The notes under the pieces are model-generated. The model ran no database searches. It saw only the letters and a list, made by a program, of their open reading frames with translations, and was not told the origin of the DNA. A program made the translations under genes and the position numbers. From contig MKSR01000012.1 of the NCBI GenBank assembly GCA_001898145.1, positions 310,001 through 374,000 of the forward strand: 64,000 nucleotides of DNA. The letters run 5' to 3'. How positions within the stretch are numbered: position 1 is the first letter of the stretch; every line of letters starts with the position of its first letter. This document shows positions 1 through 58,333 of the stretch, piece after piece. This DNA is from Dyadobacter sp. 50-39 (GTDB lineage Bacteria > Bacteroidota > Bacteroidia > Cytophagales > Spirosomataceae).

Positions 1-201
1 TCCAACCTTGGCGACACCCGCACGATCGTTACAAACCCAAACACGACGACCCACGCCAAATTGAAGCCGGAAGAAAAAGCCGCATTGGGCATTACCGAGG
101 GTTTGATCCGCGTTTCTGTCGGTTTGGAAGACATTGAAGATCTCATTGAGGATTTCACCCACGCGGTGGAGGTGTCGGTGAAAAGTGATATATTGGAGTA
201 G
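1..201 (+). CDS. Transsulfuration PLP enzyme (O-acetylhomoserine sulfhydrylase/cystathionine lyase type), 3' end only
   Basis: Only the last 66 codons are present; the gene starts before the window. The tail contains TTTHAKL followed by GLIRVSVGLEDIEDLIED, the conserved C-terminal signature of the Cys/Met-metabolism PLP family (MetB, MetC, MetY, MetZ). In this family a PLP enzyme exchanges the gamma or beta substituent of homoserine or cysteine derivatives. Its position just before a sulfate-assimilation operon, and metX elsewhere in the window, suggest it uses sulfide or cysteine with O-acetylhomoserine, but the diagnostic N-terminal part is missing, so the exact activity cannot be assigned. 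Confidence 0.85.
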   Translation, partial: SNLGDTRTIVTNPNTTTHAKLKPEEKAALGITEGLIRVSVGLEDIEDLIEDFTHAVEVSVKSDILE

Positions 202-228
202 GATTTTTTCACTTAAACCCAATTATAT

Positions 229-561
229 ATGCACACTGTAACGATCGAAATACCGGATGAACTGAGCAAAGAGGAAGTATTGCTTCCGATTGTGAAAGAA
301 CTGTTCGATAAGGGTCTTTTGTCTGCCAAGCAGGCAGCGAAGATGGCCGGTGTTAATGAAAAGGAATTTATTACGAGTGAATTGCCAAAAGACCAGTCGT
401 CGAGAACTGAAAAGCGATATGAAACGATGGAGGAAGTCCTGCAAGAGCAAATAAAGAGACAGGGCTATACCGGTTTGAACAAGGAGAAAATGGATGCCAT
501 AAGAGATAGACTGGACATTCAGGAGCCTTTTGAACTGTTGCTTTCACAGTTGACTAAATGA
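229..561 (+). CDS. Putative antitoxin of a PIN-domain toxin-antitoxin pair
   Basis: A 110-residue protein beginning with a short beta-strand stretch (HTVTIEIPDEL), followed by a helical segment containing LLSAKQAAKMAGVNEKEF, which resembles the DNA-binding N-terminal region of UPF0175/VapB-like antitoxins. The charged C-terminal half would wrap the toxin. The stop codon overlaps the start of the next gene as ATGA (558-561), the usual coupling of antitoxin and toxin. In type II systems the antitoxin neutralises the toxin and represses the pair's own promoter. The family call rests on context and the short N-terminal motif only. Confidence 0.7.
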   Translation: MHTVTIEIPDELSKEEVLLPIVKELFDKGLLSAKQAAKMAGVNEKEFITSELPKDQSSRTEKRYETMEEVLQEQIKRQGYTGLNKEKMDAIRDRLDIQEPFELLLSQLTK

Positions 562-1004
562 GATATGTACTCGATACAAACATCATAATCGCCTATTTGA
601 GAAAGCAACCTTTCTGGTATAGAATACAAGAAACTTTTGGTCTTTTTGAAACCGGAAATGAGGTAATGCTTCCGGCAGTTATTATAGGTGAATTGCGTTC
701 GCTGAGTATTCAGAATAATTGGGGAGAACGCAGAAAAGCTGAGATGGAGGAATTGATTAATGAATTTGTTCCTCTTTTTCAACTGGCTGAGGACGCAATC
801 AATCGCTACGCCGAGATTGACGCATTCAGTCAGGGAAGATTACCGGGGCTCAGGCTGGAATGTTCAGCAAGGAATATGGGGAAGAATGATTTGTGGATTG
901 CGGCGGTGGCGAGCGCGTTGAATGCTACACTGGTTACGACCGACGGCGATTTTGATCATTTGAATAACCGGTTCCTGAATGTCGCCCGATTTGAATTGAA
1001 ATAA
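558..1004 (+). CDS. PIN-domain ribonuclease toxin (VapC-like)
   Basis: A 148-residue PIN-domain protein. The acidic metal ligands are visible: D6 in LDTNI, E45 in IIGEL, D111 in NDLWIAA, and D129/D131 in VTTDGDF near the C-terminus. PIN toxins cleave RNA with Mg2+ when free of their antitoxin. The gene is translationally coupled to the preceding antitoxin and ends 8 nt before cysH, so the pair is probably co-transcribed with sulfate assimilation. Length and motifs are complete, so the toxin looks intact. Confidence 0.87.
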   Translation: MRYVLDTNIIIAYLRKQPFWYRIQETFGLFETGNEVMLPAVIIGELRSLSIQNNWGERRKAEMEELINEFVPLFQLAEDAINRYAEIDAFSQGRLPGLRLECSARNMGKNDLWIAAVASALNATLVTTDGDFDHLNNRFLNVARFELK

Positions 1005-1012
1005 TTTACACC

Positions 1013-1714
1013 ATGAACGAAACATTAGCATCTTTAAACGCTGCCATCGAGGGCAAAAGTGAAACAGAGTCGCTTGCGATACTGGCGGAGCTTTTTCCCG
1101 GTGAAGTCGTTTTTTCAACCAGCCTGGGGTATGAAGATCAGGTGATCAGCGACCTCATTTTAAAGAACGGCATCAATATCGGGATCTTCACGCTCGATAC
1201 CGGAAGGCTTTTTGCTGAGACTTACATGACTTTGCAAAAGACCAACAACCGCTACGACACTAAAATAAAAGTGTACTACCCGCAAACCGACGCGGTAGAG
1301 AACCTGGTGAGCACGAAAGGACCGCTTAGCTTCTACGAATCCATTGAAAACCGTAAGGAGTGCTGCTTTATCCGCAAGGTGGAGCCGCTGAATCGTGCAT
1401 TGGCAGGTGCGAAAATCTGGGTGACGGGTATCCGGGCAGAACAGTCGGGAAACCGTCATGATATGCCGAGGCTCGAATGGGACGAGGCACACCAGCTCTT
1501 CAAGTTCCACCCGATTTTGCATTGGTCGTTCGAAGAGGTAAAACAATACGTGAAATCAAACGGCATACCTTATAACCCGCTGCATGACAAAGGCTTCGTG
1601 AGCATTGGCTGCGCACCATGTACCCGCGCGATCCAGGAAGGCGAAGATTTCCGCGCCGGAAGATGGTGGTGGGAGGACGAATCGAAGAAAGAATGCGGGT
1701 TGCATGCGAAATAG
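1013..1714 (+). CDS. cysH: Assimilatory adenylyl-sulfate (APS) reductase, 4Fe-4S type
   Basis: This enzyme reduces activated sulfate to sulfite with electrons from thioredoxin. The 233-residue protein has a PP-loop N-terminal half (FSTSLGYEDQV) and the C-terminal catalytic motif KKECGLH with nucleophile C228. It carries the paired cysteines C117-C118 (ECCFIRK) and C200/C203 (GCAPCTRA), which bind a 4Fe-4S cluster in APS-using enzymes and are absent from PAPS-only reductases. That fits the absence of an APS kinase here: CysD and CysN make APS, which this enzyme can use directly. It starts 8 nt after the PIN toxin; the stop is followed at once by an inverted heptamer array. Confidence 0.93.
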   Translation: MNETLASLNAAIEGKSETESLAILAELFPGEVVFSTSLGYEDQVISDLILKNGINIGIFTLDTGRLFAETYMTLQKTNNRYDTKIKVYYPQTDAVENLVSTKGPLSFYESIENRKECCFIRKVEPLNRALAGAKIWVTGIRAEQSGNRHDMPRLEWDEAHQLFKFHPILHWSFEEVKQYVKSNGIPYNPLHDKGFVSIGCAPCTRAIQEGEDFRAGRWWWEDESKKECGLHAK

Positions 1715-1715
1715 C

Positions 1716-1791
1716 CGTAGGCTATAAGCATTAGGCTTTAAGCTTAGAGAATATTTGGCTTACAGCTTATAGCCTAAAGCTTACAGCTATT
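1716..1791 (+). repeat. Inverted array of a 7-nt word, cysH-cysD junction
   Basis: The left arm is four 7-mers (CGTAGGC, TATAAGC, ATTAGGC, TTTAAGC; 1716-1743). The right arm is four 7-mers of the complementary word (GCTTACA, GCTTATA, GCCTAAA, GCTTACA; 1758-1785) plus a partial unit. The arms can pair into a long imperfect stem with a 14-nt loop. It begins 2 nt after the cysH stop. No coding potential is seen. It may act as an mRNA 3'-end stabiliser or processing signal between cysH and cysD. Confidence 0.8.
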
Positions 1792-1815
1792 AACAAAAAA
1801 TCAATAACCAAAAAT

Positions 1816-2769
1816 ATGTCAATTTCAGTGAACGAGGCCTCCGACATCCAACGGGAGATTAGTGAACGCAGCGCTCCGGATTACCTGGATCAGCTGGAAG
1901 CAGAGGCCATTTACATTATGCGTGAAGTAGCCGGCCAGTTTGAGCGCCCTGCCCTGTTGTTTTCAGGAGGTAAGGATTCGATCACATTGGTTCATTTGGC
2001 GAAAAAAGCATTCGCACCCGGCAAAATCCCCTTCCCGCTGGTGCATGTCGATACCGGTCATAACTTCATCGAAGCGATCGAGTACCGCGACGAGCTGGCC
2101 GAGGCCATCAATGCGAAACTGATCGTTCGCTACGTGGAAGATACCATCAAGGCGAAAGGATTAAAGGAGCAAACCGGCAAGAATGCAAGCCGCAACTGGC
2201 TGCAAACCTTCACGTTGCTGGATACCATCGAAGAATTTGAATTTGACGCATGTATAGGAGGCGCTCGTCGAGACGAAGAGAAAGCACGCGCGAAAGAGCG
2301 TATCTTCTCGTTCCGAGACGAGTTCGGTCAATGGGACCCGAAACGCCAGCGACCCGAGCTTTGGAATTTGTTTAACGGCCGCATTCAGAAAGGTGAAAAC
2401 GTACGCGTATTCCCGATCTCGAACTGGACCGAGCTGGATGTGTGGGCATACCTGAAAAGGGAAGGTATCGCATTGCCTTCGATCTACTTCGCACACGAAC
2501 GCGAGCTGATCCTCCGCGACGGCAAATTGCTGAATAACACGCCGGTAATCGAACCCGATCCGGAAGACCAGATCGTAACCCGCCAGGTACGTTTCCGTAC
2601 CGTGGGCGATATGACCTGTACCGCAGCAGTGGAATCCGCAGCAGCAACCCTGGACGAAGTAATCGCTGAAATCACCATTTCAAGAATCAGCGAACGCGGC
2701 GAAACCCGCATCGACGACCAGCAGACAGAAGCCGCGATGGAGGATAGAAAGAAGGGCGGTTATTTTTAA
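1816..2769 (+). CDS. cysD: Sulfate adenylyltransferase, small subunit
   Basis: The 317-residue ATP-sulfurylase subunit, which with CysN forms APS from ATP and sulfate. The PP-loop ATP-binding motif LFSGGKDSITLVHLAKK lies near residue 50, followed by VDTGHNFIEAIEYRDE and the conserved IGGARRDEEKARAKERIFS, all typical of CysD. The ATG at 1816 gives the standard family length. It sits between cysH and cysN; the downstream gap is only about 50 nt and is filled by an 8-nt repeat that begins at the stop codon. Confidence 0.97.
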   Translation: MSISVNEASDIQREISERSAPDYLDQLEAEAIYIMREVAGQFERPALLFSGGKDSITLVHLAKKAFAPGKIPFPLVHVDTGHNFIEAIEYRDELAEAINAKLIVRYVEDTIKAKGLKEQTGKNASRNWLQTFTLLDTIEEFEFDACIGGARRDEEKARAKERIFSFRDEFGQWDPKRQRPELWNLFNGRIQKGENVRVFPISNWTELDVWAYLKREGIALPSIYFAHERELILRDGKLLNNTPVIEPDPEDQIVTRQVRFRTVGDMTCTAAVESAAATLDEVIAEITISRISERGETRIDDQQTEAAMEDRKKGGYF

Positions 2770-2808
2770 TGAATGATTATTCACTCATTCAATCATTCAG
2801 TCATTCAA
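2769..2808 (+). repeat. Tandem 8-nt word with one inverted unit, cysD-cysN junction
   Basis: Four consecutive octamers (TTATTCAC, TCATTCAA, TCATTCAG, TCATTCAA; 2777-2808) are preceded by about one inverted unit (AATGAATGA), so a short hairpin can form. The array starts on the last base of the cysD stop codon and ends 10 nt before the GTG start of cysN. Confidence 0.75.
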
Positions 2809-2818
2809 AATTACACCA

Positions 2819-4063
2819 GTGGATTTACTAAGATTTATAACAGCAGGCTCCGTTGACGACGGCAAAAGCACATTGATCGGTCGCTTGCTTTACGATACCA
2901 AAAATATTCTGGCCGATCAGATGGAAGCCATCGAGCGCGCCAGCAAAACCCGTAATGCGGGTGAAATCGACCTTGCATTGCTGACGGACGGTCTTCGTTC
3001 GGAACGCGAGCAGGGCATTACCATCGATGTAGCTTACAAATATTTCCAGACGCCGAACCGAAAGTTCATCAGCATCGATGCGCCGGGGCACATTCAGTAC
3101 ACCCGTAACATGGTGACCGGTGCTTCCAATGCCGATCTGGCCATTATCCTGGTTGATGCACGCCATGGTGTGGTGGAACAAACCCGTCGTCACTCGCTGA
3201 TCGCATCCATGCTGGGTATCCCGCACGTGATCGTGGCGGTGAACAAAATGGATTTGGTAGGAAACTCGGAAGATGCTTTTCTTGAAATAGCCAAATCCTA
3301 CACAGAACTCGCTGAGAAGCTGTCTATCAAAGACTTGACGATCATCCCGGTAAGCGCATTGAATGGCGATAACATCGTAGAGCGCTCGGAGGCCATGAGT
3401 TGGTACACCGGCGAAACATTGCTGTCGGTGCTCGAAAACGTGAATGTGCTGAAAGACCAGAACCAGGAAGACGGCCGTTTCGCGGTACAATATGTGATCC
3501 GTCCTCAGACTGACGAGCTGCACGACTACCGTGGCTACGCGGGTCGCGTCCAAAGCGGTACTTTCAAAAAAGGTGACGCGATCAAGGTTTTGCCCTCTGA
3601 AAGAGAGTCCAAAATCGCTAAAATCGAATTTGGCGGAAACGAAATACCGCAAGCCTCTGTTTTGGAATCTGTAACGATATTATTGGAAGACGATATCGAT
3701 ATCAGCCGCGGTGATATGATCGTGACCGTGGACAACTCACCGATCGTGAGCCAGGATATCGAAGCGCTGGTGTGCTGGATGGACGACAAGAAGACGCTGA
3801 AACCAGGTAACAAATACGTTTTGCAACACGGTACGGCACGTTCGCGCTGCTCGATCCGTGGCATCGAATACCAGATCGACATCAACTCTTATGAAAAACT
3901 GGATGAGGTGGAAGCCCTGAAACTGAACGACGTAGCAAGAATCGTCCTCAGAACGGCTCAGCCCATCGCATACGACCCTTATCAGAAGAACCGCGCAAAC
4001 GGCGCAGCGATCCTGATCGACGAAACGTCCAATGTGACGGTTGGTGCTTGTATGATCGAGTAA
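2819..4063 (+). CDS. cysN: Sulfate adenylyltransferase, large GTPase subunit
   Basis: The 414-residue GTPase subunit that drives APS formation by CysD. The G-motifs are present: GSVDDGKST (residues 10-18), DAPGHIQYTRNM and NKMDL, followed by EF-Tu-like beta-barrel domains. The start is GTG at 2819: the reading frame has a stop at 2774-2776 and no ATG between, and the G1 loop sits where the family expects it. There is no fused CysC (APS kinase) domain after the barrels, consistent with direct APS reduction. A REP-like palindrome begins directly after the stop. Confidence 0.96.
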   Translation: MDLLRFITAGSVDDGKSTLIGRLLYDTKNILADQMEAIERASKTRNAGEIDLALLTDGLRSEREQGITIDVAYKYFQTPNRKFISIDAPGHIQYTRNMVTGASNADLAIILVDARHGVVEQTRRHSLIASMLGIPHVIVAVNKMDLVGNSEDAFLEIAKSYTELAEKLSIKDLTIIPVSALNGDNIVERSEAMSWYTGETLLSVLENVNVLKDQNQEDGRFAVQYVIRPQTDELHDYRGYAGRVQSGTFKKGDAIKVLPSERESKIAKIEFGGNEIPQASVLESVTILLEDDIDISRGDMIVTVDNSPIVSQDIEALVCWMDDKKTLKPGNKYVLQHGTARSRCSIRGIEYQIDINSYEKLDEVEALKLNDVARIVLRTAQPIAYDPYQKNRANGAAILIDETSNVTVGACMIE

Positions 4064-4147
4064 TGTCAGGCTGAGCGGAGTCGAAGCCAGGTGCGCTATC
4101 GCAAAACCCTTCGACCGCACCGGCGGCCCGGTCCGCTCAGGGTGACA
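4064..4147 (+). repeat. REP-like palindrome, copy A (cysN-sulfite reductase junction)
   Basis: The outer left arm TGTCAGGCTGAGCGGA plus GTCGAAG (4064-4086) pairs with the right half (4109-4147), whose reverse complement begins TGTCACCCTGAGCGGA and ends GGTCGAAG. The right half carries a GC-rich insert (CCGGGCCGCCGG) lacking on the left. The same building blocks occur at 58241-58333 and, in reduced form, at 17901-17932. It starts immediately after the cysN stop codon. Confidence 0.85.
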
Positions 4148-4203
4148 ATCACCGCACTATTGAATAAAAATATACTATCCCGATAGACGATTAGAATATC
4201 ATC

Positions 4204-6432
4204 ATGAGCGAATTAATCATTTCTGACAAAGTATCCGCCGTTGCGAAGCGCGATATCATTGACCTGCAACATAAAATCGGTGCGTTCAACTCCGGTGAAA
4301 CGCCGGAAGAGGCGTTCCGTAAGTTCCGCCTTACACGCGGTGTGTATGGTCAGCGTCAGCCCGGCGTGCAGATGATTCGTATCAAATTGCCTTACGGACG
4401 CATTACAGCCGATCAGCTGGTCCGCATTGCTGATACTTCCGACAAATACGCAACCGGCAACCTGCACGCAACTACGCGCCAGGACATCCAGCTGCACTTT
4501 GTAAAACTTTCGGACTCGCCGCAATTGTGGGCGGACCTGGAAGATGCGGGCATCACACTGAAAGAAGCTTGTGGTAATACGATTCGCAATGTTACGGCAT
4601 CTTCTGTCGCGGGTATCGATCCGGATGAGCCGTTCGACGTAACGCCGATCACCCATTCGATCTTCTCTTATTTCCTCCGCAACCCGATTAACCAGGATAT
4701 GGGCCGGAAGTTTAAGATCGCCGTTTCTTCTTCTGAAAAAGACAGCGCCTTGGCGTTCATCCACGACGTAGGCCTGATCGCGAAGATGGGCCAAAACGAG
4801 GCGGGCGAAACCGTTCGCGGTTTCAAAGTGCTGATCGGCGGCGGCCTCGGCGCGCAGCCTTTCTCGGCACAAACTGCATTCGAATTCCTCGAAGAAGATA
4901 AAGTAATTCCTTTCATCGAAGCATTGCTCCGCGTGTTCGACCGCTACGGCGAGCGCGTACGTCGCCACAAGGCGCGTATGAAGTTCCTTTTGAACGACCT
5001 CGGCCTTGAAGGTATGATGGCAAAAGTGGAGGAAGAGCGCAAAGCGGTTAAAAACAAGATATTTCAGATTCCGGAAGACCTTTTCGGCACCAACGAATAC
5101 GAGGCGATCAACCATGCGCCGCGTCCTGCATTGTCCGAAGCGGAAATCCTGAAAATCGCTGCGGAAAGCATTGAAGCGGACAAGCTCGATATTTTCACCA
5201 AATGGCTGCGTACCAACACATTTGAGCAAAAACAAAAAGGCTGGTATGCCGTGCAGTTGCGCGTGTTGCTGGGCGATATGAACTCCGACACTGCACGCAG
5301 CCTGGCTGATGTAGTGCGCCAATATGCTGCCGACGACATCCGCGTGACAGTGAACCAGGGCTATATTCTCCGTTTTGTAAAAGGCGAAGACCTCGTAGCA
5401 TTGTACCACGAACTCGCGAAACTCGGCCTCGCAGCGCCAGGCTTCGACAGCACAATGGACATCACGACCTGCCCTGGAACGGATACCTGTAACCTCGCGA
5501 TTTCCAGCAGCTACGGAATTACCCGCGTGCTGGAAGATGTGATGCGCGAAGAGTTCCCGGAAATGATTTATAATCAGGATATTAAAATCAAGATCAGCGG
5601 CTGTATGAACGGTTGCGGCCAGCACAATGCAGCCAACATCGGCTTCCACGGCAGCTCGATCAAGAATGGCAAGCTGGTACTGCCCGCATTGCAGGTACTG
5701 CTCGGCGGCGGATTCTCCGGCGACGGCATTGGTCTGATCGGCGATAAGGTGATCAAAGTTCCTACCAAACGCGGACCGGAAGTTTTGCGCCTGCTTTTCA
5801 ATGATTACGAAGCAAATGCCATGGATGGAGAGTATTTCAACCAGTATTACCTCCGTCAGACGAAAAACTATTTCTTCCAGTTGCTCAAACCGCTCGCGGA
5901 CCTCACTACCGTAAAAGACGATGATTACCGCGACTGGGATCACGATGAATTGTTCAAAACTGAAATCGGGGTTGGTGAATGTGCTTCTGTGCTGGTTGAC
6001 CTCGTGGCTACAACCATCGTTGAAGGTCAGGAGAAGTTGAACCTGGCGAAAGACTCTTTCCAATCAGGTGTTTGGGCGGACTCGATTTACCATGCATACA
6101 ATGTGTTTATCACAGGTGCAAAAGGCTTACTGATGTCGAAAGACGTGACTACCAATACGCAATACGGCATTATCAACGATTTCGAAACGCATTTCGGCCA
6201 GGATTTCAAATACAATGTCCCTGCTGAATTTGCAGTAGAAAATCAAGCGGAAACGCCATTCAAAGCATTGGTTTTCAGCATTAATAAATTCGAACCAAGC
6301 GAAGCATTCGCAACGTATTTTATCAATACCGCCGAAAACTTCCTGAACTTCGTCCGTGACACCCGCGAGGCGCAATTGGTCGAAACCGGGGAGCCTGCGT
6401 TGCAGGAGCTTTCATTTGGAAAGGATAGTTAA
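4204..6432 (+). CDS. Siroheme 4Fe-4S sulfite reductase with C-terminal helical extension
   Basis: A 742-residue nitrite/sulfite reductase-fold enzyme. Siroheme/4Fe-4S ligands are C423 and C429 (TTCPGTDTCNLAIS) and C467 and C471 (ISGCMNGCGQHN). Two ferredoxin-like half-repeats precede them (GVYGQRQPGVQMIRIKLPYG and TTRQDIQLHF). Operon context, after cysHDN and before the siroheme gene cobA, indicates assimilatory reduction of sulfite to sulfide; no NADPH flavoprotein subunit is seen. About 170 residues after the catalytic core (from roughly 570) are extra; the stretch WADSIYHAYNVFITGAKGLL looks like a HEPN-type helical bundle. Nitrite as substrate cannot be ruled out from sequence. Confidence 0.9.
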   Translation: MSELIISDKVSAVAKRDIIDLQHKIGAFNSGETPEEAFRKFRLTRGVYGQRQPGVQMIRIKLPYGRITADQLVRIADTSDKYATGNLHATTRQDIQLHFVKLSDSPQLWADLEDAGITLKEACGNTIRNVTASSVAGIDPDEPFDVTPITHSIFSYFLRNPINQDMGRKFKIAVSSSEKDSALAFIHDVGLIAKMGQNEAGETVRGFKVLIGGGLGAQPFSAQTAFEFLEEDKVIPFIEALLRVFDRYGERVRRHKARMKFLLNDLGLEGMMAKVEEERKAVKNKIFQIPEDLFGTNEYEAINHAPRPALSEAEILKIAAESIEADKLDIFTKWLRTNTFEQKQKGWYAVQLRVLLGDMNSDTARSLADVVRQYAADDIRVTVNQGYILRFVKGEDLVALYHELAKLGLAAPGFDSTMDITTCPGTDTCNLAISSSYGITRVLEDVMREEFPEMIYNQDIKIKISGCMNGCGQHNAANIGFHGSSIKNGKLVLPALQVLLGGGFSGDGIGLIGDKVIKVPTKRGPEVLRLLFNDYEANAMDGEYFNQYYLRQTKNYFFQLLKPLADLTTVKDDDYRDWDHDELFKTEIGVGECASVLVDLVATTIVEGQEKLNLAKDSFQSGVWADSIYHAYNVFITGAKGLLMSKDVTTNTQYGIINDFETHFGQDFKYNVPAEFAVENQAETPFKALVFSINKFEPSEAFATYFINTAENFLNFVRDTREAQLVETGEPALQELSFGKDS

Positions 6433-6435
6433 AAT

Positions 6436-6524
6436 GGCTGTCGGCAAGCGGCTGTCGGCTTTCGGCTTTTTCTTGTGATGATATTTGCAAAAAAAGGCCG
6501 ATAGCCGATAGCCGACTGCCGAAG
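6436..6524 (+). repeat. Inverted array of a 7-nt word, sulfite reductase-cobA junction
   Basis: The left arm is five heptamers (GGCTGTC, GGCAAGC, GGCTGTC, GGCTTTC, GGCTTTT; 6436-6470). The right arm is four heptamers of the complementary word (GCCGATA, GCCGATA, GCCGACT, GCCGAAG; 6497-6524). They are separated by a 26-nt AT-rich loop. It begins 3 nt after the stop codon and ends 11 nt before the cobA start. The word is related to the array inside the desaturase-family gene at 29562-29589. Confidence 0.85.
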
Positions 6525-6535
6525 TCCCACTCACC

Positions 6536-7309
6536 ATGAAACTGACACTGATCGGTGCAGGTCCGGGCGATCCCGACCTGATCACCCTCAAAGGAATCAA
6601 GGCCCTGCAAAAAGCACGGGTTGTATTATACGATTCCCTTGCCCACCCCGCTTTACTGGATTATTGTCCCGAGGATTGTGTGAAGATCCTCGTCGGCAAG
6701 CGCTTTGGCAAAACGAGCTGCGGCCAGGACGAAATCAACGACCTGATCGTCGAAAAAGCGCGCCAATATGGCGACGTGGTGCGGCTGAAAGGCGGCGACT
6801 CGTTCATATTCGGTCGTGGCTATGAAGAAATCCTTTTCGCGGCGGAACACGGCATTGAATCGGAAGTCATTCCGGGCATTTCCAGCAGCTACGCGGCACC
6901 GGCATTGGCGGGCATTCCTTTAACATCGCGGGGAATGAGTGAGAGTTTCTGGGTGATTACCGGTACCACCAAACAACACGCGCTTTCCAACGACGTCCGT
7001 TTGGCCGCCCAGTCGACGGCAACCGTGGTCATTCTCATGGGTTTGCACAAATTGCAGGAAATCGTCAACATTTACTCAGAACTCGGGAAATTCGACGAAT
7101 CCATTTCCATTATACAGAACGGCACGCTGGAAAACCAGAAAGTAGTTACCGGCAAAATCGGCAACATCGTTCCGCTTTCACAGGTGGCTGAAATGGCTTC
7201 GCCAGCGATCATCGTGATCGGGAAAGTAGCGGCATTACCGGATCTGTCATACGATAAAGTGCGGGAAATAATGCAAAATTCGCAGTCCGTCAGTGGATTA
7301 GCGGAATGA
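6536..7309 (+). CDS. cobA: Uroporphyrinogen-III C-methyltransferase
   Basis: A 257-residue SAM-dependent methyltransferase that dimethylates uroporphyrinogen III to precorrin-2, the first step of siroheme synthesis. Motifs: GAGPGDPDLITLKG at the N-terminus, YDSLAHP, and VRLKGGDSFIFGRGYEE near residue 85, all diagnostic of SUMT/CobA. It lies last in the sulfate operon and supplies the siroheme for the preceding reductase. It lacks the CysG dehydrogenase/ferrochelatase domain, so that step must be encoded outside the window. Confidence 0.95.
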   Translation: MKLTLIGAGPGDPDLITLKGIKALQKARVVLYDSLAHPALLDYCPEDCVKILVGKRFGKTSCGQDEINDLIVEKARQYGDVVRLKGGDSFIFGRGYEEILFAAEHGIESEVIPGISSSYAAPALAGIPLTSRGMSESFWVITGTTKQHALSNDVRLAAQSTATVVILMGLHKLQEIVNIYSELGKFDESISIIQNGTLENQKVVTGKIGNIVPLSQVAEMASPAIIVIGKVAALPDLSYDKVREIMQNSQSVSGLAE

Positions 7310-7344
7310 AAATCGCCGAAATCTGAAAGGAAATTTGCAGTTAA

Positions 7345-7686
7345 TCAGAGCAGCCCCAGCAGCCAGTCGATATTAATGCTGTTTTCGTGGCCGCGGAATT
7401 CGAGGAAATAAATCAATCCTGCTAAAATTACATAGCTGATAAACAGCCACTTCTTTTTCACTTCGTACTGGTCGCGGTGGTGAAAATAGTCGTATACCAT
7501 CGATGCCGAGAAGGCGGAGACCATCAGTACCAGACAAAGTATTCCGCAATCCTGCCGGTAATGCTTGTAAAAATGCAATGCCGGCGCACCCAGCGCAATG
7601 TACATCAGCCAGAAACCGAAACCGGTTCGGTACAGGTAGACGCTTAGTCTGCGATCGTTCCTAATATCAAATAACCCTTCCAGCAT
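7345..7686 (-). CDS. Small membrane protein of unknown function
   Basis: About 113 residues from an ATG at 7686; an upstream in-frame TTG at 7737 would add 17 residues. Three or four hydrophobic segments are visible (GFWLMYIALGAPALHFY, CGILCLVLMVSAFSASMVY, WLFISYVILAGLIYFL), with charged loops between them (YFHHRDQYEVKKK). It has no motif I recognise. It is convergent with cobA and divergent from the acyltransferase gene, so it stands alone. Confidence 0.6.
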   Translation of the reverse strand: MLEGLFDIRNDRRLSVYLYRTGFGFWLMYIALGAPALHFYKHYRQDCGILCLVLMVSAFSASMVYDYFHHRDQYEVKKKWLFISYVILAGLIYFLEFRGHENSINIDWLLGLL

Positions 7687-7746
7687 AGCATTGATCCAAC
7701 TGTTGAACCAGTGAATATAAACAAAACGAAAATACAATCAAAGTGT

Positions 7747-7754
7747 TAACTTTG
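7747..7754 (+). promoter_or_regulatory. Bacteroidota -7 element TAACTTTG ahead of the acyltransferase
   Basis: TAACTTTG matches the Bacteroidota -7 consensus TAnnTTTG and lies 37 nt before the ATG at 7792, leaving room for a short leader. No clear -33 TTG is seen at the right distance. Confidence 0.5.
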
Positions 7755-7791
7755 CGGCTCCATTGCCGTTTTAGTACAAGATGTTCCTCAC

Positions 7792-8706
7792 ATGAAAGCG
7801 TTCTCCACCCATTTGTTTCTGATGCTGCTCAATGCGGTTTCAAAGCTGTCCTGGGGAGCCCTCTACAAGCTTTCCGACATCTTTCGTTTCCTCATTTTCG
7901 ACATCGGCCAATACAGAAAAAAGGTCGTGCTGAACAATCTCCGAAACAGTTTTCCTGCCTCCGACGAGCAGACAATCCATGCGATTGCGGCAAAATTCTA
8001 CCGCAATTTCACCGATATCATGTTCGAAACGATCAAACTCAAATCGATAACCAGGGAGGATTTGCTTGCACGGATCGATCTGGATGTTTCTATTCTGGAC
8101 CGCTACTACGAGAAAAATCAGAACCTGGTCGTTGTAGCAGGACATCTCGGAAACTGGGAAATGATGAACCTCTTCGGTTCCGCGCGACTCAGGCACCAGA
8201 TGGTTGTCGTTTATCACGAGCTTCAAAACGATGCATTCGAAAATTGGTTCAAGGACGTGAGGACCCGCTTCGGCACCGAAATGGTTACCATGAAAGAAGC
8301 CATTTCCAAAGCCATGCAACCGCGCGAACGGCCATTCATATTCATACTTATTAATGACCAGTCGCCAGTACCGGAAAAGGCTTTCTGGACGAGGTTCCTT
8401 CATCAGGACACCGGCGTGTTTCGGGGTGTGGAAACGATTGCACGACGGCTCAATTCACCCGTACTGTATATGGCTGTATTAAAAAACGAGCTGAAACGCG
8501 GTTTTTATCGGGGCTACTTCAAACTGATCACGGAAACGCCGAAACAAGAACCGAACAACAGCATTTTACAGGCTCAGATCGGTTTTATGGAAAAAGACAT
8601 CATCCAGCAGCCCGATAACTGGCTATGGTCGCATAAGCGTTGGAAACACAAAAAGCCGGGAAATCTTCCGCAATCACAGCTATTACAGGAAATCCAAAGT
8701 GAATAA
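7792..8706 (+). CDS. Lipid A acyltransferase (LpxL/HtrB family)
   Basis: A 304-residue inner-membrane acyltransferase that adds a secondary acyl chain to lipid A on the cytoplasmic face. It has an N-terminal hydrophobic anchor (LFLMLLNAVSKLSWGALY) and the catalytic H-x4-E motif in VAGHLGNWEMMN (H118, E123), then NDQSPVPEKAFWTRFLHQDTG, typical of the LpxL/LpxM group. The Bacteroidota -7 element at 7747 supports the ATG at 7792. Its end overlaps the next gene by 8 nt (8699-8706), giving a two-gene lipopolysaccharide unit. Confidence 0.93.
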   Translation: MKAFSTHLFLMLLNAVSKLSWGALYKLSDIFRFLIFDIGQYRKKVVLNNLRNSFPASDEQTIHAIAAKFYRNFTDIMFETIKLKSITREDLLARIDLDVSILDRYYEKNQNLVVVAGHLGNWEMMNLFGSARLRHQMVVVYHELQNDAFENWFKDVRTRFGTEMVTMKEAISKAMQPRERPFIFILINDQSPVPEKAFWTRFLHQDTGVFRGVETIARRLNSPVLYMAVLKNELKRGFYRGYFKLITETPKQEPNNSILQAQIGFMEKDIIQQPDNWLWSHKRWKHKKPGNLPQSQLLQEIQSE

Positions 8707-17900: not shown

Positions 17901-17932
17901 CTTCGACCGCCCGGCGGACCGGGCGGTCGAAG
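17901..17932 (+). repeat. REP-like palindrome, copy B (core only)
   Basis: A perfect hairpin with 14-nt arms, CTTCGACCGCCCGG and CCGGGCGGTCGAAG, around a CGGA loop. It is the inner core of the larger copies at 4064-4147 and 58241-58333, without the outer TGTCAGCCTGAGC arms. It lies 15 nt after the aminotransferase stop, where it could also slow or end transcription, though no T-run follows. Confidence 0.85.
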
Positions 17933-20928: not shown

Positions 20929-21020
20929 GGTCAGGAGTGGTCAGGAATTGTCAAGGGGTAGTCAGGAATTTTTAAAACATTACCTGACAACACATGACTA
21001 CCCCTGACCATTCCTGACCA
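20929..21020 (+). repeat. Inverted array of a 10-nt word after aguA
   Basis: Left arm (20929-20969): GGTCAGGAGT, GGTCAGGAAT, TGTCAAGGGG and TAGTCAGGAA in tandem. Right arm (20981-21020): the complementary word repeated, including CCTGACAACA, CATGACTACC, CCTGACCATT and CCTGACC. An AT-rich spacer separates the arms. It fills the gap between convergent aguA and the lipoprotein gene, starting 7 nt after one stop and ending 3 nt before the other; it could serve both transcripts as a 3' stem-loop. Confidence 0.85.
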
Positions 21021-28603: not shown

Positions 28604-29599
28604 ATGCCCGGCACTTATGATTTCGAGGATCTCATTCTGAAACTGTCGACACCGTTTTATATATGTCTGATCGGCCTTGAGATCTTTTTAACATACAAGA
28701 ATCCTCACACGGAACTGGCCAAACGTCCGGCCTATTCTTTCAAAGACACATTGATGAATGCGGTGCTGATGCTGCTCAACGGCGGTATCGATCTGCTTTT
28801 CAGGGCGGCTTACGTAAGCGTGCTCATCTGGTTTTACAATTTCTCTTTTGTAGAACCGATCGCCAATCCGTACCTGTACTGGCTGGCGCTGTTTCTCGCC
28901 GAGGACCTGGCGTTTTACACATTGCATTATGTCGATCACCATTGCAGGCTCTTCTGGGCGGTGCACGTAACGCACCATTCGTCGGAACATTTCAACCTCA
29001 CCACGGGCTTCCGGTCGTCGGTATTCCAGCCGCTCTACCGTTTCATTTACTTCATTCCGCTTACGCTGGTGGGTTTCAATCCGGCCGATATCATCGTCAT
29101 GTATTCGATTACGCAGATTTACGGTATCATCGTCCACACGGAATACGTGGGTAAGCTGGGCTGGCTGGAATACATTTTCGTGACGCCGTCGCACCACCGC
29201 GTGCATCATGCGAGCAACGTGCAGTACCTGGACAAGAACATGGGCATGTGCCTGATCATCTGGGACCGCATTTTCGGAACTTTTCAGGAAGAACTACCCG
29301 CCGAGCCCCCGCGTTACGGCCTCACAAAGTCCATGGAGCAGCAAGGCCTGGGCCAAACGGTATTCCATGAATGGAAAGCCATCAGCCAGGATTTCATGCA
29401 GCCGGTAGATTTCAAAACCAAGCTCAAATACCTGCTCAAAGCACCAGGATGGTCGCCCGACGGGTCACGGGAAACAAGTAAGGATTTGCAGCGAAAACTG
29501 GCGGATCTTACTTCGGCCGCCGGCTATCAGCCATCGGACGATTTAGAAAACAAATTTGGAAGCCGACTGCCGGAAGCCGAAAGCCAAAGTACTATTTAA
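28604..29599 (+). CDS. Sterol desaturase/fatty acid hydroxylase family membrane protein
   Basis: A 331-residue di-iron membrane oxygenase. The histidine boxes are present: HYVDHH, HVTHHSSEHFN and HRVHHASN, all near the cytoplasmic face, with four or more membrane segments (YICLIGLEIFLTY, AAYVSVLIWFYNF, FIYFIPLTLVGF). Such proteins hydroxylate or desaturate lipid chains; the substrate here is unknown. The last residues (SRLPEAESQST) are encoded by four tandem heptamers (29562-29589), so the tail seems to be a recent addition. The end overlaps the convergent gcdH gene by 8 nt. Confidence 0.88.
   Translation: MPGTYDFEDLILKLSTPFYICLIGLEIFLTYKNPHTELAKRPAYSFKDTLMNAVLMLLNGGIDLLFRAAYVSVLIWFYNFSFVEPIANPYLYWLALFLAEDLAFYTLHYVDHHCRLFWAVHVTHHSSEHFNLTTGFRSSVFQPLYRFIYFIPLTLVGFNPADIIVMYSITQIYGIIVHTEYVGKLGWLEYIFVTPSHHRVHHASNVQYLDKNMGMCLIIWDRIFGTFQEELPAEPPRYGLTKSMEQQGLGQTVFHEWKAISQDFMQPVDFKTKLKYLLKAPGWSPDGSRETSKDLQRKLADLTSAAGYQPSDDLENKFGSRLPEAESQSTI
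29562..29589 (+). repeat. Tandem heptamers inside the 3' end of a gene
   Basis: GCCGACT, GCCGGAA, GCCGAAA, GCCAAAG: four 7-mers of the same word as the right arm of the array at 6497-6524. They lie in the coding sequence, ending 7 nt before the stop codon, and encode most of the last ten residues. Only one orientation is present. Confidence 0.8.
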
Positions 29600-57445: not shown

Positions 57446-58216
57446 ATGAAAAAAGGATTTTTAATGCTTGCTATCGGGCTGATGAGCCTGGTGTCGATGG
57501 ATGGTATGTCTCAAAAGAAAAACAAAGTGATCGCGCACCGTGGTGCCTGGAAAAACACAGGTGCCACCGAAAACTCGATCGGTGCGCTGGAACACGCGAT
57601 CAAGCTCGGGTGCTACGGCAGCGAATTCGATGTGCATATGTCTGCGGATTCCGTTTTGTACGTACTGCACGACCATTCCATCCAGGGTACGAATATCGAA
57701 ACGACTAATTCGGCTGAACTTTCGAAGATTAAACTGGCCAACGGCGAATCGCTGCCTACTTTGGAAGCTTACCTGAAGGCTGGTTCGAAACAAAAGAAAA
57801 CCCGTTTGATCCTGGAAATCAAAACCTCAAAGATCAGCAAGGAGCGCTCGCTCGCACTGGCAACCAAATGCGTGGAATTGGTGAAGAAAATGAAGGTGGA
57901 AAAAATCACCGACTACATTGCATTCAGCTGGGATGTTTGCTTGAAAGTGAAAGAGCTCGCGCCGAAGGCGCACGTCGAATACCTGAACGGCGACAAAACG
58001 CCTGACGAAATCCAGGCCGCAGGCCTCGACGGTATCGACTACCATCTTAGCGTTTTGAAGAGAAAAGAGGATTACATTCCGGCCATGCGCCAGAAAAAAC
58101 TGACTACCAACGTGTGGACAGTGAATGATGAAGCGGATTTGAAATACTTCCTGGAAAAAGACGTGGATTACATTACTACCAACGAGCCCGAGCTGCTGCT
58201 AAGCCTTTCGAAGTAA
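57446..58216 (+). CDS. Secreted glycerophosphodiester phosphodiesterase
   Basis: About 256 residues from ATG 57446 (a second ATG at 57425 adds seven); this start gives a cleaner signal peptide, KKGFLMLAIGLMSLVSM. The GDPD core is present: VIAHRGAWKNTGATENSIGA (catalytic His and Glu), EFDVHMSADSVLYVLHDHSI (metal ligands and second His), LILEIKTSK, and VWTVNDEADLKYFLEKDVDY at the C-terminus. It would release glycerol-3-phosphate from phospholipid head groups in the periplasm. A very long palindrome follows. Confidence 0.92.
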   Translation: MKKGFLMLAIGLMSLVSMDGMSQKKNKVIAHRGAWKNTGATENSIGALEHAIKLGCYGSEFDVHMSADSVLYVLHDHSIQGTNIETTNSAELSKIKLANGESLPTLEAYLKAGSKQKKTRLILEIKTSKISKERSLALATKCVELVKKMKVEKITDYIAFSWDVCLKVKELAPKAHVEYLNGDKTPDEIQAAGLDGIDYHLSVLKRKEDYIPAMRQKKLTTNVWTVNDEADLKYFLEKDVDYITTNEPELLLSLSK

Positions 58217-58240: not shown

Positions 58241-58333
58241 TGTCAGCCTGAGCGAACCGGGCCGCCGGGCGGTCGAAGGCCGTTACAGTAACGGCCTTCG
58301 ACCGCCCGGCGGCCCGGTTTGCTCAGGCTGACA
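58241..58333. repeat. REP-like palindrome, copy C (45-nt arms)
   Basis: The left arm 58241-58285 and right arm 58289-58333 are complementary over 45 nt with a single mismatch and a 3-nt loop (CAG). From outside in: TGTCAGCCTGAGC, then AACCGGGCCGCC, GGGCGGTCGAAG and GCCGTTA. It lies between convergent GDPD and metX and may stop transcription both ways. It shares its blocks with copies at 4064 and 17901. Confidence 0.95.

Follow-up and report, generated by a model that had tools for sequence, protein, structure and literature searches.

Stop-codon-proximal repeat families in the sulfate operon of Dyadobacter sp. 50-39 and related genomes

The sequence analysed here (the window) is a stretch of 64,000 nucleotides from Dyadobacter sp. 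50-39. The genome of this strain, 7.72 Mb, is referred to as G000. The window carries an operon with the gene order cysH, cysD, cysN, sir (a nitrite/sulfite-reductase-like hemoprotein gene) and cobA, whose relatives are Dyadobacter operons. Each of the four junctions, cysH–cysD (J1), cysD–cysN (J2), cysN–sir (J3) and sir–cobA (J4), holds a repeat element that begins at the stop codon of the upstream gene or at most 3 nt after it, as the original prediction, made from the letters of the window, had claimed. The repeats have many dispersed copies, genome-specific dialects, a fixed polarity of their arms, an anchoring at stop codons and predicted stem–loops. We consider, with a probability of about one half, that they are dispersed, high-copy families of palindromic repeats at the 3′ ends of genes, resembling the repetitive extragenic palindromes (REPs) and bacterial interspersed mosaic elements (BIMEs) of Escherichia coli and acting like the stop-proximal REPs of that species.

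The junction elements, all read on the forward strand, were examined by direct inspection of the letters, with Tandem Repeats Finder (TRF), by de novo repeat scans and by folding. J1 (1713–1790) is an inverted heptamer array of the RGCTNTA dialect, with a 5′ arm at about 1713–1744 and a 3′ arm at about 1758–1790 (fold z −5.6); its first unit, AGCCGTA, starts within the TAG stop codon of cysH (1712–1714). J4 (6436–6524), which begins 3 nt past the TAA of sir, is an inverted heptamer array of the GGCTNTC dialect (arms at about 6436–6470 and 6493–6524) and folds with −60 kcal/mol (z −10.7). The TRF period is 7 for both, as in the cyanobacterial short tandemly repeated repetitive (STRR) sequences, which are intergenic tandem heptamers. 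J2 (2770–2808) lies immediately 3′ of the cysD TAA and is an array of the octamer GAATGANT, chiefly in one arm (TCATTC; TRF unit ATTCAATC, period 8; fold z −2.7). We regard it as mainly a one-arm array because a single stretch of 9 nt, at 2770–2778, folds back (TGAATGATT/AATCATTCA). J3 (4064–4147), immediately 3′ of the cysN TAA, has no tandem word and is a palindrome, TGTCA..CTGAGCGgaGTCGAAG, of the CTTCGACNNCGCTCAG family (fold z −3.6). The earlier description of three elements with tandem words (J1, J2 and J4), two of them inverted (J1 and J4), is thus confirmed. Its statement that the words differ holds only in part: the words given for J1 (GCTTAYA) and J4 (GGCTNTC) are two spellings of one heptamer, RGCTNTN. 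There was no match to Rfam in window positions 1–8000 at the gathering threshold.

The survey of word arrays in G000 covered 101 stretches (2.06 Mb), the window included. In triple units, RGCTNTN has 63 matches in G000 against six for the reversed pattern; here and below, pattern counts refer to matches, which overlap, rather than to elements. With strict unit patterns, 50 word-array elements were obtained, 45 of them non-coding, which is the dispersed extragenic distribution expected of REPs and BIMEs. The arms face each other (->...<-) in all 21 two-arm elements, and the opposite arrangement (<-...->) does not occur in the 2.06 Mb. A de novo scan of the first 1.26 Mb, which makes no assumption about words, found 649 scan windows with at least four direct and at least four inverted 6-mer pairs, against 323 in first-order Markov-shuffled sequence, and the families of the junction elements are prominent among the strongest non-coding families recovered. 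The J3 palindrome family has 92 exact pattern sites in G000 and none in the reversed control. Separately, this palindrome was seen in tandem at G000:C40:538425-539685 (about eight copies, period near 178 nt) and at G000:C12:471394-471572 (seven sites, six of them at 25-nt spacing), and J3-like palindromes are present at window positions 58241–58333 and 17901–17932, 3′ of open frames that have their ends at 58216 and 17885.

Positions relative to genes in G000 rely on a custom gene caller, whose stops are exact for the chosen frames, whose starts are less exact and which misses some genes; element types were assigned partly by eye. The link to stop codons that had been claimed is borne out for the two-arm elements, of which 18 of 19 are no more than 15 nt from a stop (median 5 nt). 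With four elements at the edges of stretches left unplaced, 41 could be assigned to gaps: 17 between stop and start, 15 between start and stop, eight between two stops and one between two starts. Of gaps 60 nt or longer there are 283, 300, 126 and 218, respectively; for gaps between starts this is one of 41 elements against 218 of 927 gaps (P about 3e-4). Fourteen of the 15 two-arm elements in stop/start gaps are closer to the stop, and where room is greatest, in three gaps of 172, 344 and 491 nt, the stop is 8, 5 and 6 nt away from the element and the start 77, 146 and 409 nt. Filtering by score, coding and GC content left 33 of the 649 de novo windows; 28 of the 30 placeable ones adjoin a stop and two lie between starts. 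The J3 family has looser stop distances and no member between starts among 21 placed elements, and 13 of 36 of its elements overlap called genes. Placement downstream of genes rather than in divergent gaps, as in REPs and BIMEs, is therefore the rule (one exception among the 41 elements of G000, none among the 21 of the J3 family or the 28 from other genomes described below), and the two-arm elements also show the distance of at most 15 nt from the stop associated with REPs that act on translation. The comparison of arrays after stops and elsewhere, proposed earlier as a check, came out in favour of the former. The median distance from the stop is 23 nt for the start of T-tract hairpins, measured at 85 other gene ends, and 5 nt for array units; the two measures are not strictly alike, the hairpin finder taking loops of 3–10 nt only and detecting stems for just 14 of 35 array ends, with a median of 18.5 nt.

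The words are dialects common to unlinked sites of a genome. At least 10 matches to A-type words occur in seven of 41 Dyadobacter genomes, to T-type words in 18 and to C-type words in 22, and no genome combines the A- and T-types at this level (Fisher P 0.012). J1 and J4 are spelled concordantly in 11 of the 15 genomes typed at both, where 4.6 would be expected (kinship not corrected). Position 7 of the heptamer is alike in 79 per cent of neighbours within an arm and in 35 per cent between elements (524 units). At position 5, neighbours agree in 108 of 416 cases, fewer than after shuffling (130.1 ± 6.7), and adjacent units match completely in only 29 of 416 cases, unlike the near-identical tandem units of STRR. 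In both G000 dialects, position 5 is predicted by the index of the unit counted from the outer end (mutual information 0.19 and 0.24 versus 0.06 and 0.05, P 0.0005 each); position 4 depends on this index in the C dialect (P 0.0065) and not in the A dialect (P 0.22). The outer flank TACTTC or GACTTC precedes 13 of 55 arms. Because the unit index predicts position 5 and some arms share this flank, the arms resemble degraded copies of an ancestral sequence with ordered units and a period of 7 nt.

The unit order is mirrored between the two arms in 32 of 48 elements (unit permutation), the window's J1 being an exception, and 70 of 112 variable bases are paired on folding; copying between arms is weak at most. 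Hairpin template switching as the sole source of the second arm was rejected, and a crude register test showed no mirroring of the variable base. Extension of 3′ ends at breaks would account for the polarity, but some elements carry native sequence in the loop.

The junctions were then compared in 36 Dyadobacter loci and the window (the non-Dyadobacter rows L066, L067, L069 and L070 being excluded); the genomes are related, and counts across them are not independent. J4 folds with z < −2 in 36 of 37 genomes, the stem starting 0–7 nt past the stop and the words differing, and the earlier claim that the architecture is kept while the sequence is not holds across genomes, above all at this junction. 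The same z is reached at J1 in 14 of 19 genomes with an array and in one of 17 testable genomes without (L065, which has a weaker array), at J2 in 21 of 36 testable genomes and at J3 in 16 of 30. As J4 is kept while the elements of J1–J3 come and go, a useful role at sir–cobA and tolerance elsewhere are suggested. The stop codon before J1 is TAG in 16 of 19 genomes with the heptamer array and TAA in 14 of 18 without it; in G000 as a whole, TAG is only slightly in excess (8 of the 20 stops that precede arms, versus 23 per cent of all genes). D. endophyticus (L035) has empty sites, with 31 nt at J1 and 19 nt at J2.

In a comparison of the operon across Dyadobacter genomes, as had been proposed, the same junctions differ in words. 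D. fermentans and its sister on the tree, D. jiangsuensis, have different elements at all four junctions: RGCTNTA and RGCGGTC, respectively, at J1, GAGTTYA and GAATGANT at J2, a bare hairpin and a palindrome pair at J3, and RGCTNTC and RGCGGTC at J4. The J3 palindrome (CTTCGAC..GCTCAG) is found throughout G000 and at J3 of several Dyadobacter genomes. By eye, the palindrome pair of D. jiangsuensis (L032) and D. beijingensis (L034) is situated inside the loop of an apparently older hairpin, which is bare in D. fermentans (L031) and D. soli (L033). Homologous replacement including the flanking genes was rejected as an explanation: in ten genomes, with alleles assigned by eye, the distances of 300-nt flanks do not track the allele at J1, J2 or J4. 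At J4 of the D. koreensis group (L038, L040, L041, L044, L047, L050 and L060) the arms flank another hairpin, mostly of the AAGTCA...TGACTT type (by eye), and can thus stand about 130 nt apart around other sequence.

The triple-unit RGCTNTN pattern extends beyond the genus. It is present in 33 of 37 Dyadobacter genomes, five of 22 other genomes of the order and 55 of 198 sampled Bacteroidota genomes; controls are mostly near zero, with exceptions such as G038, a relative outside the genus, where control matches outnumber the real ones. Outside Dyadobacter, 20 stretches from seven genomes of the same class, chosen from the listed matches before their context was known, contained 29 elements, of which 28 could be placed relative to genes (called as longest open frames only in genomes other than G000). 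Twelve are of the form ><, one is ><><> and 15 have one arm; none lies between starts. Eleven of the 13 two-arm elements are within 15 nt of a stop, one overlapping a frame end by 16 nt. These 11 stem from four genomes (G226, G230, G210 and G091); no anchored two-arm element was seen in the stretches around listed matches in G178, G182 and G214.

In the reading that we favour, each arm of the main family would be a degenerate copy of a sequence of about 30 nt with a 7-nt period (RGCTNTN), and two such arms would face each other. Copying or conversion within the genome would keep the dialect uniform at unlinked sites, and different alleles would replace one another at the same junction between sister species. 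The transcribed element is predicted to fold into a stem–loop that starts at the stop codon or within about 10 nt of it; by analogy with E. coli, this structure would abut the terminating ribosome and lower the output, or set the 3′ stability, of the upstream gene. Dispersal with homogenization is the best reading because of the dialects, the unit order and the distribution, and we infer that within-genome copying causes the dialects and, from the E. coli analogy, that the elements may affect translation or decay in Dyadobacter. Two questions thereby become testable, namely the concerted respelling of dozens to hundreds of sites and the setting of operon expression by 3′ structures that touch the stop codon. 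Neighbouring species provide natural experiments, with arrays present, absent or respelled at the same junctions.

Several results weigh against this reading. The elements of J1–J3 are optional: the J1 heptamer array is absent by rule in 18 of 37 genomes (L059, L061 and L065 among them have weaker arrays), and the J3 gap is 13–15 nt in seven of 37. Only 8 of 22 one-arm elements in G000 are within 15 nt of a stop. J1 and J4 are spelled discordantly in L031, L033, L063 and G000 itself, all of one group. Numbers of real and reversed arrays in a scan that tolerated mismatches are 54 and 23 for RGCTNTN, 19 and 4 for RGCNGTC, and 22 and 0 for GAATGANT; the control of 23 overstates chance, as a reversed word fits C-type arrays too, which makes the reversed-pattern control unsound for C-type words. 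An excess of G–U over A–C mismatches was sought at J1–J4 and not found (13:19, 11:26, 15:14 and 52:46; 91 versus 105 in total), nor was it in G000 (30:38 in stop/start gaps, 10:7 in convergent gaps). Over 41 genomes, matches do not correlate with counts of the two candidate mobilizers, Y1 transposase (Y1_Tnp, rho 0.07) and reverse transcriptase (RVT_1, rho −0.06), and within about 0.5 kb on each side of the two Y1_Tnp genes of G000 there are no clear copies of the junction words.

The original prediction had offered two interpretations, of which selection for a 3′ stem–loop is the better placed, although we regard it as unlikely. It supposes that any RNA stem–loop behind each stop is selected (mRNA 3′ protection or segmental stability), irrespective of sequence, with repeats as handy material. 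The nearly universal J4 stem, close to the stop and differing in words, is in line with it, as is the fact that several genomes lacking the J3 palindrome carry an unrelated hairpin in its place (z < −2 in 8 of the 18 testable); the unit order is also mirrored somewhat above chance, with the window's J1 among the exceptions. The mismatch counts, by contrast, do not point to selection for pairing as RNA. J1 without an array hardly ever folds (the one of 17 being L065 with its weaker array), and the seven genomes with a short J3 have no room for a hairpin. Cis arms pair only slightly better than trans arms (67 per cent of 51). Given the missing G–U excess, this weak cis preference and the partial mirroring, the stems form mainly since both arms bear the same word.

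A further possibility, more novel and likewise unlikely, is that the elements constitute an undescribed Bacteroidota class of stop-anchored inverted word arrays, with a phylum-wide framework of RGC and T6, a position 7 set as a concerted genome dialect and a free position 5, which would fit a trans-acting reader or writer. If so, a binding protein or copying enzyme of evolving specificity would install and homogenize arrays behind stops, which would make it a counterpart in bacteria of a rapidly evolving factor that reads DNA. No prior account of inverted degenerate-word arrays at Bacteroidota stop codons was recognized among the matches listed in a search that covered the subscription literature thinly; the TAACTGA heptamers and the tagged REPs, compared below, come nearest.

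REPs in the strict sense, moved by REP-associated tyrosine transposases (RAYTs, Y1), seem less probable still. The downstream position and the facing dimers are as described for GTAG REPs in the accessible text of PMC3733652, a TAG is supplied to the reading frame at array-bearing J1 sites and perhaps in G000 (proportions above), and Y1_Tnp genes occur in 40 of 41 genomes. The tags, however, are all but missing: GTAG/CTAC stands beside none of 55 arms and CGTC/GACG beside two, other repeats surround both G000 Y1_Tnp genes, and the counts are uncorrelated. As a separate observation, each of these genes has its own nearby repeat (GGTGCAGAGCACCGCAAGATTTGTAGAA at L132:1280-1470 and CCGTCGACTTAAGTCGACGG at L131:1160-1300), and these are candidate RAYT-type targets unlike the J1–J4 words.

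The second earlier interpretation, growth in place by slippage from any short word after a stop codon, is very improbable. Arms are short and tandem, and there are a few long perfect arrays (e.g. G257:C12:25657-25729). Nevertheless, the dialects recur at unlinked sites, the core of the word is common across Bacteroidota, the units are ordered and the arms share flanks. Adjacent units agree at the variable base less often than after shuffling and are rarely identical, the opposite of what fresh slippage would leave, which disfavours this origin.

Little is also to be said for gated Rho sites, in which the C-richer 3′ arm, with pyrimidine–C steps every 7–10 nt, would serve for Rho loading, hidden by the G-richer 5′ arm until a terminating ribosome opens it. 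The polarity of the arms is fixed, and G exceeds C in the 5′ arm of all eight octamer elements and 12 of the 14 heptamer elements in G000 and, across genomes, in 16 of 17 (J1), 14 of 14 (J2) and 30 of 37 (J4) elements, but not consistently at J3 (7 of 16) or among the remaining arrays of the de novo scan (4 of 9). Because plain hairpins are similarly skewed in sums (387:283 and 657:532), the signal is weak for heptamers. Ordinary intrinsic terminators, for which the location of hairpins at gene ends and a T-run that closes the 5′ arm of J4 would speak, are very improbable as well: direct inspection of J1–J4 reveals no T-run after the 3′ arm (a scan matched nothing but the 5′ arm of J4, at its inner end), the elements sit between co-directional operon genes, and T-tract hairpins start further from the stop, subject to the difference in measures noted above.

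All genes of the operon are on the forward strand: cysH (phosphoadenylyl-sulfate reductase, 1013–1714), cysD (1816–2769), cysN (2819–4063, with a GTG start), sir (4204–6432, nitrite/sulfite reductase hemoprotein-like, reaching no NCBIfam cut-off) and cobA (uroporphyrinogen-III C-methyltransferase, 6536–7309). Upstream of cysH (229–1004) there are two small overlapping genes, the second resembling VapC PIN-domain toxins below the family cut-off; this may perhaps be a toxin–antitoxin pair. Elsewhere in the window, an inverted array of the 10-nt word GGTCAGGARt (20929–21020, strand unassigned) fills the gap between two called genes that converge, leaving 6 and 2 nt to their stops. At 29509–29590, a heptamer element of the C dialect (TACTTCGGCCGCCGGCTATCAGCC ... 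AAGCCGACTGCCGGAAGCCGAAAGCC) lies within the end of the open frame 28604–29599, as if the array had overrun the stop codon and lengthened the protein.

Overall, the original observation largely holds and its interpretation is partly supported, and the elements can be set against known systems. Like E. coli REPs and BIMEs, they are dispersed extragenic palindromes 3′ of genes with a stem adjoining the stop codon; unlike these, as far as the accessible text of the sources goes, their arms are arrays of 7-, 8- or 10-nt words, spelled in genome dialects and without the GTAG tag. Ribosome stalling by E. coli REPs that stand at most 15 nt from a stop codon is reported in PMC12306157, which cites Liang, Rudd and Deutscher 2015; its quoted figures for stop-proximal REPs, 446 of 4,072 or 260 of 496, differ from the 18 of 19 two-arm Dyadobacter members. 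REPs tagged with GTAG or CGTC are, in the available text of PMC3733652, mostly 3′ of coding regions, form facing dimers and supply TAG stops with their termini. The Dyadobacter elements share with these RAYT-associated REPs the downstream placement, the facing dimers and the TAG stops, but differ from them in the near absence of terminal tags and, from the GTAG superfamily, in that neither Y1_Tnp locus of G000 is flanked by array words. The TAACTGA repeats of Beggiatoaceae, according to the accessible part of PMC4679880, consist of identical units in direct orientation, which in the main genome mostly stand immediately 5′ of start codons, and are reported in five Bacteroidetes too, one set directly after a stop codon. 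Like STRR and TAACTGA repeats, the Dyadobacter arrays are intergenic tandem heptamers unevenly distributed between relatives; unlike TAACTGA, they have degenerate units, frequently in two inverted arms, and follow stop codons.

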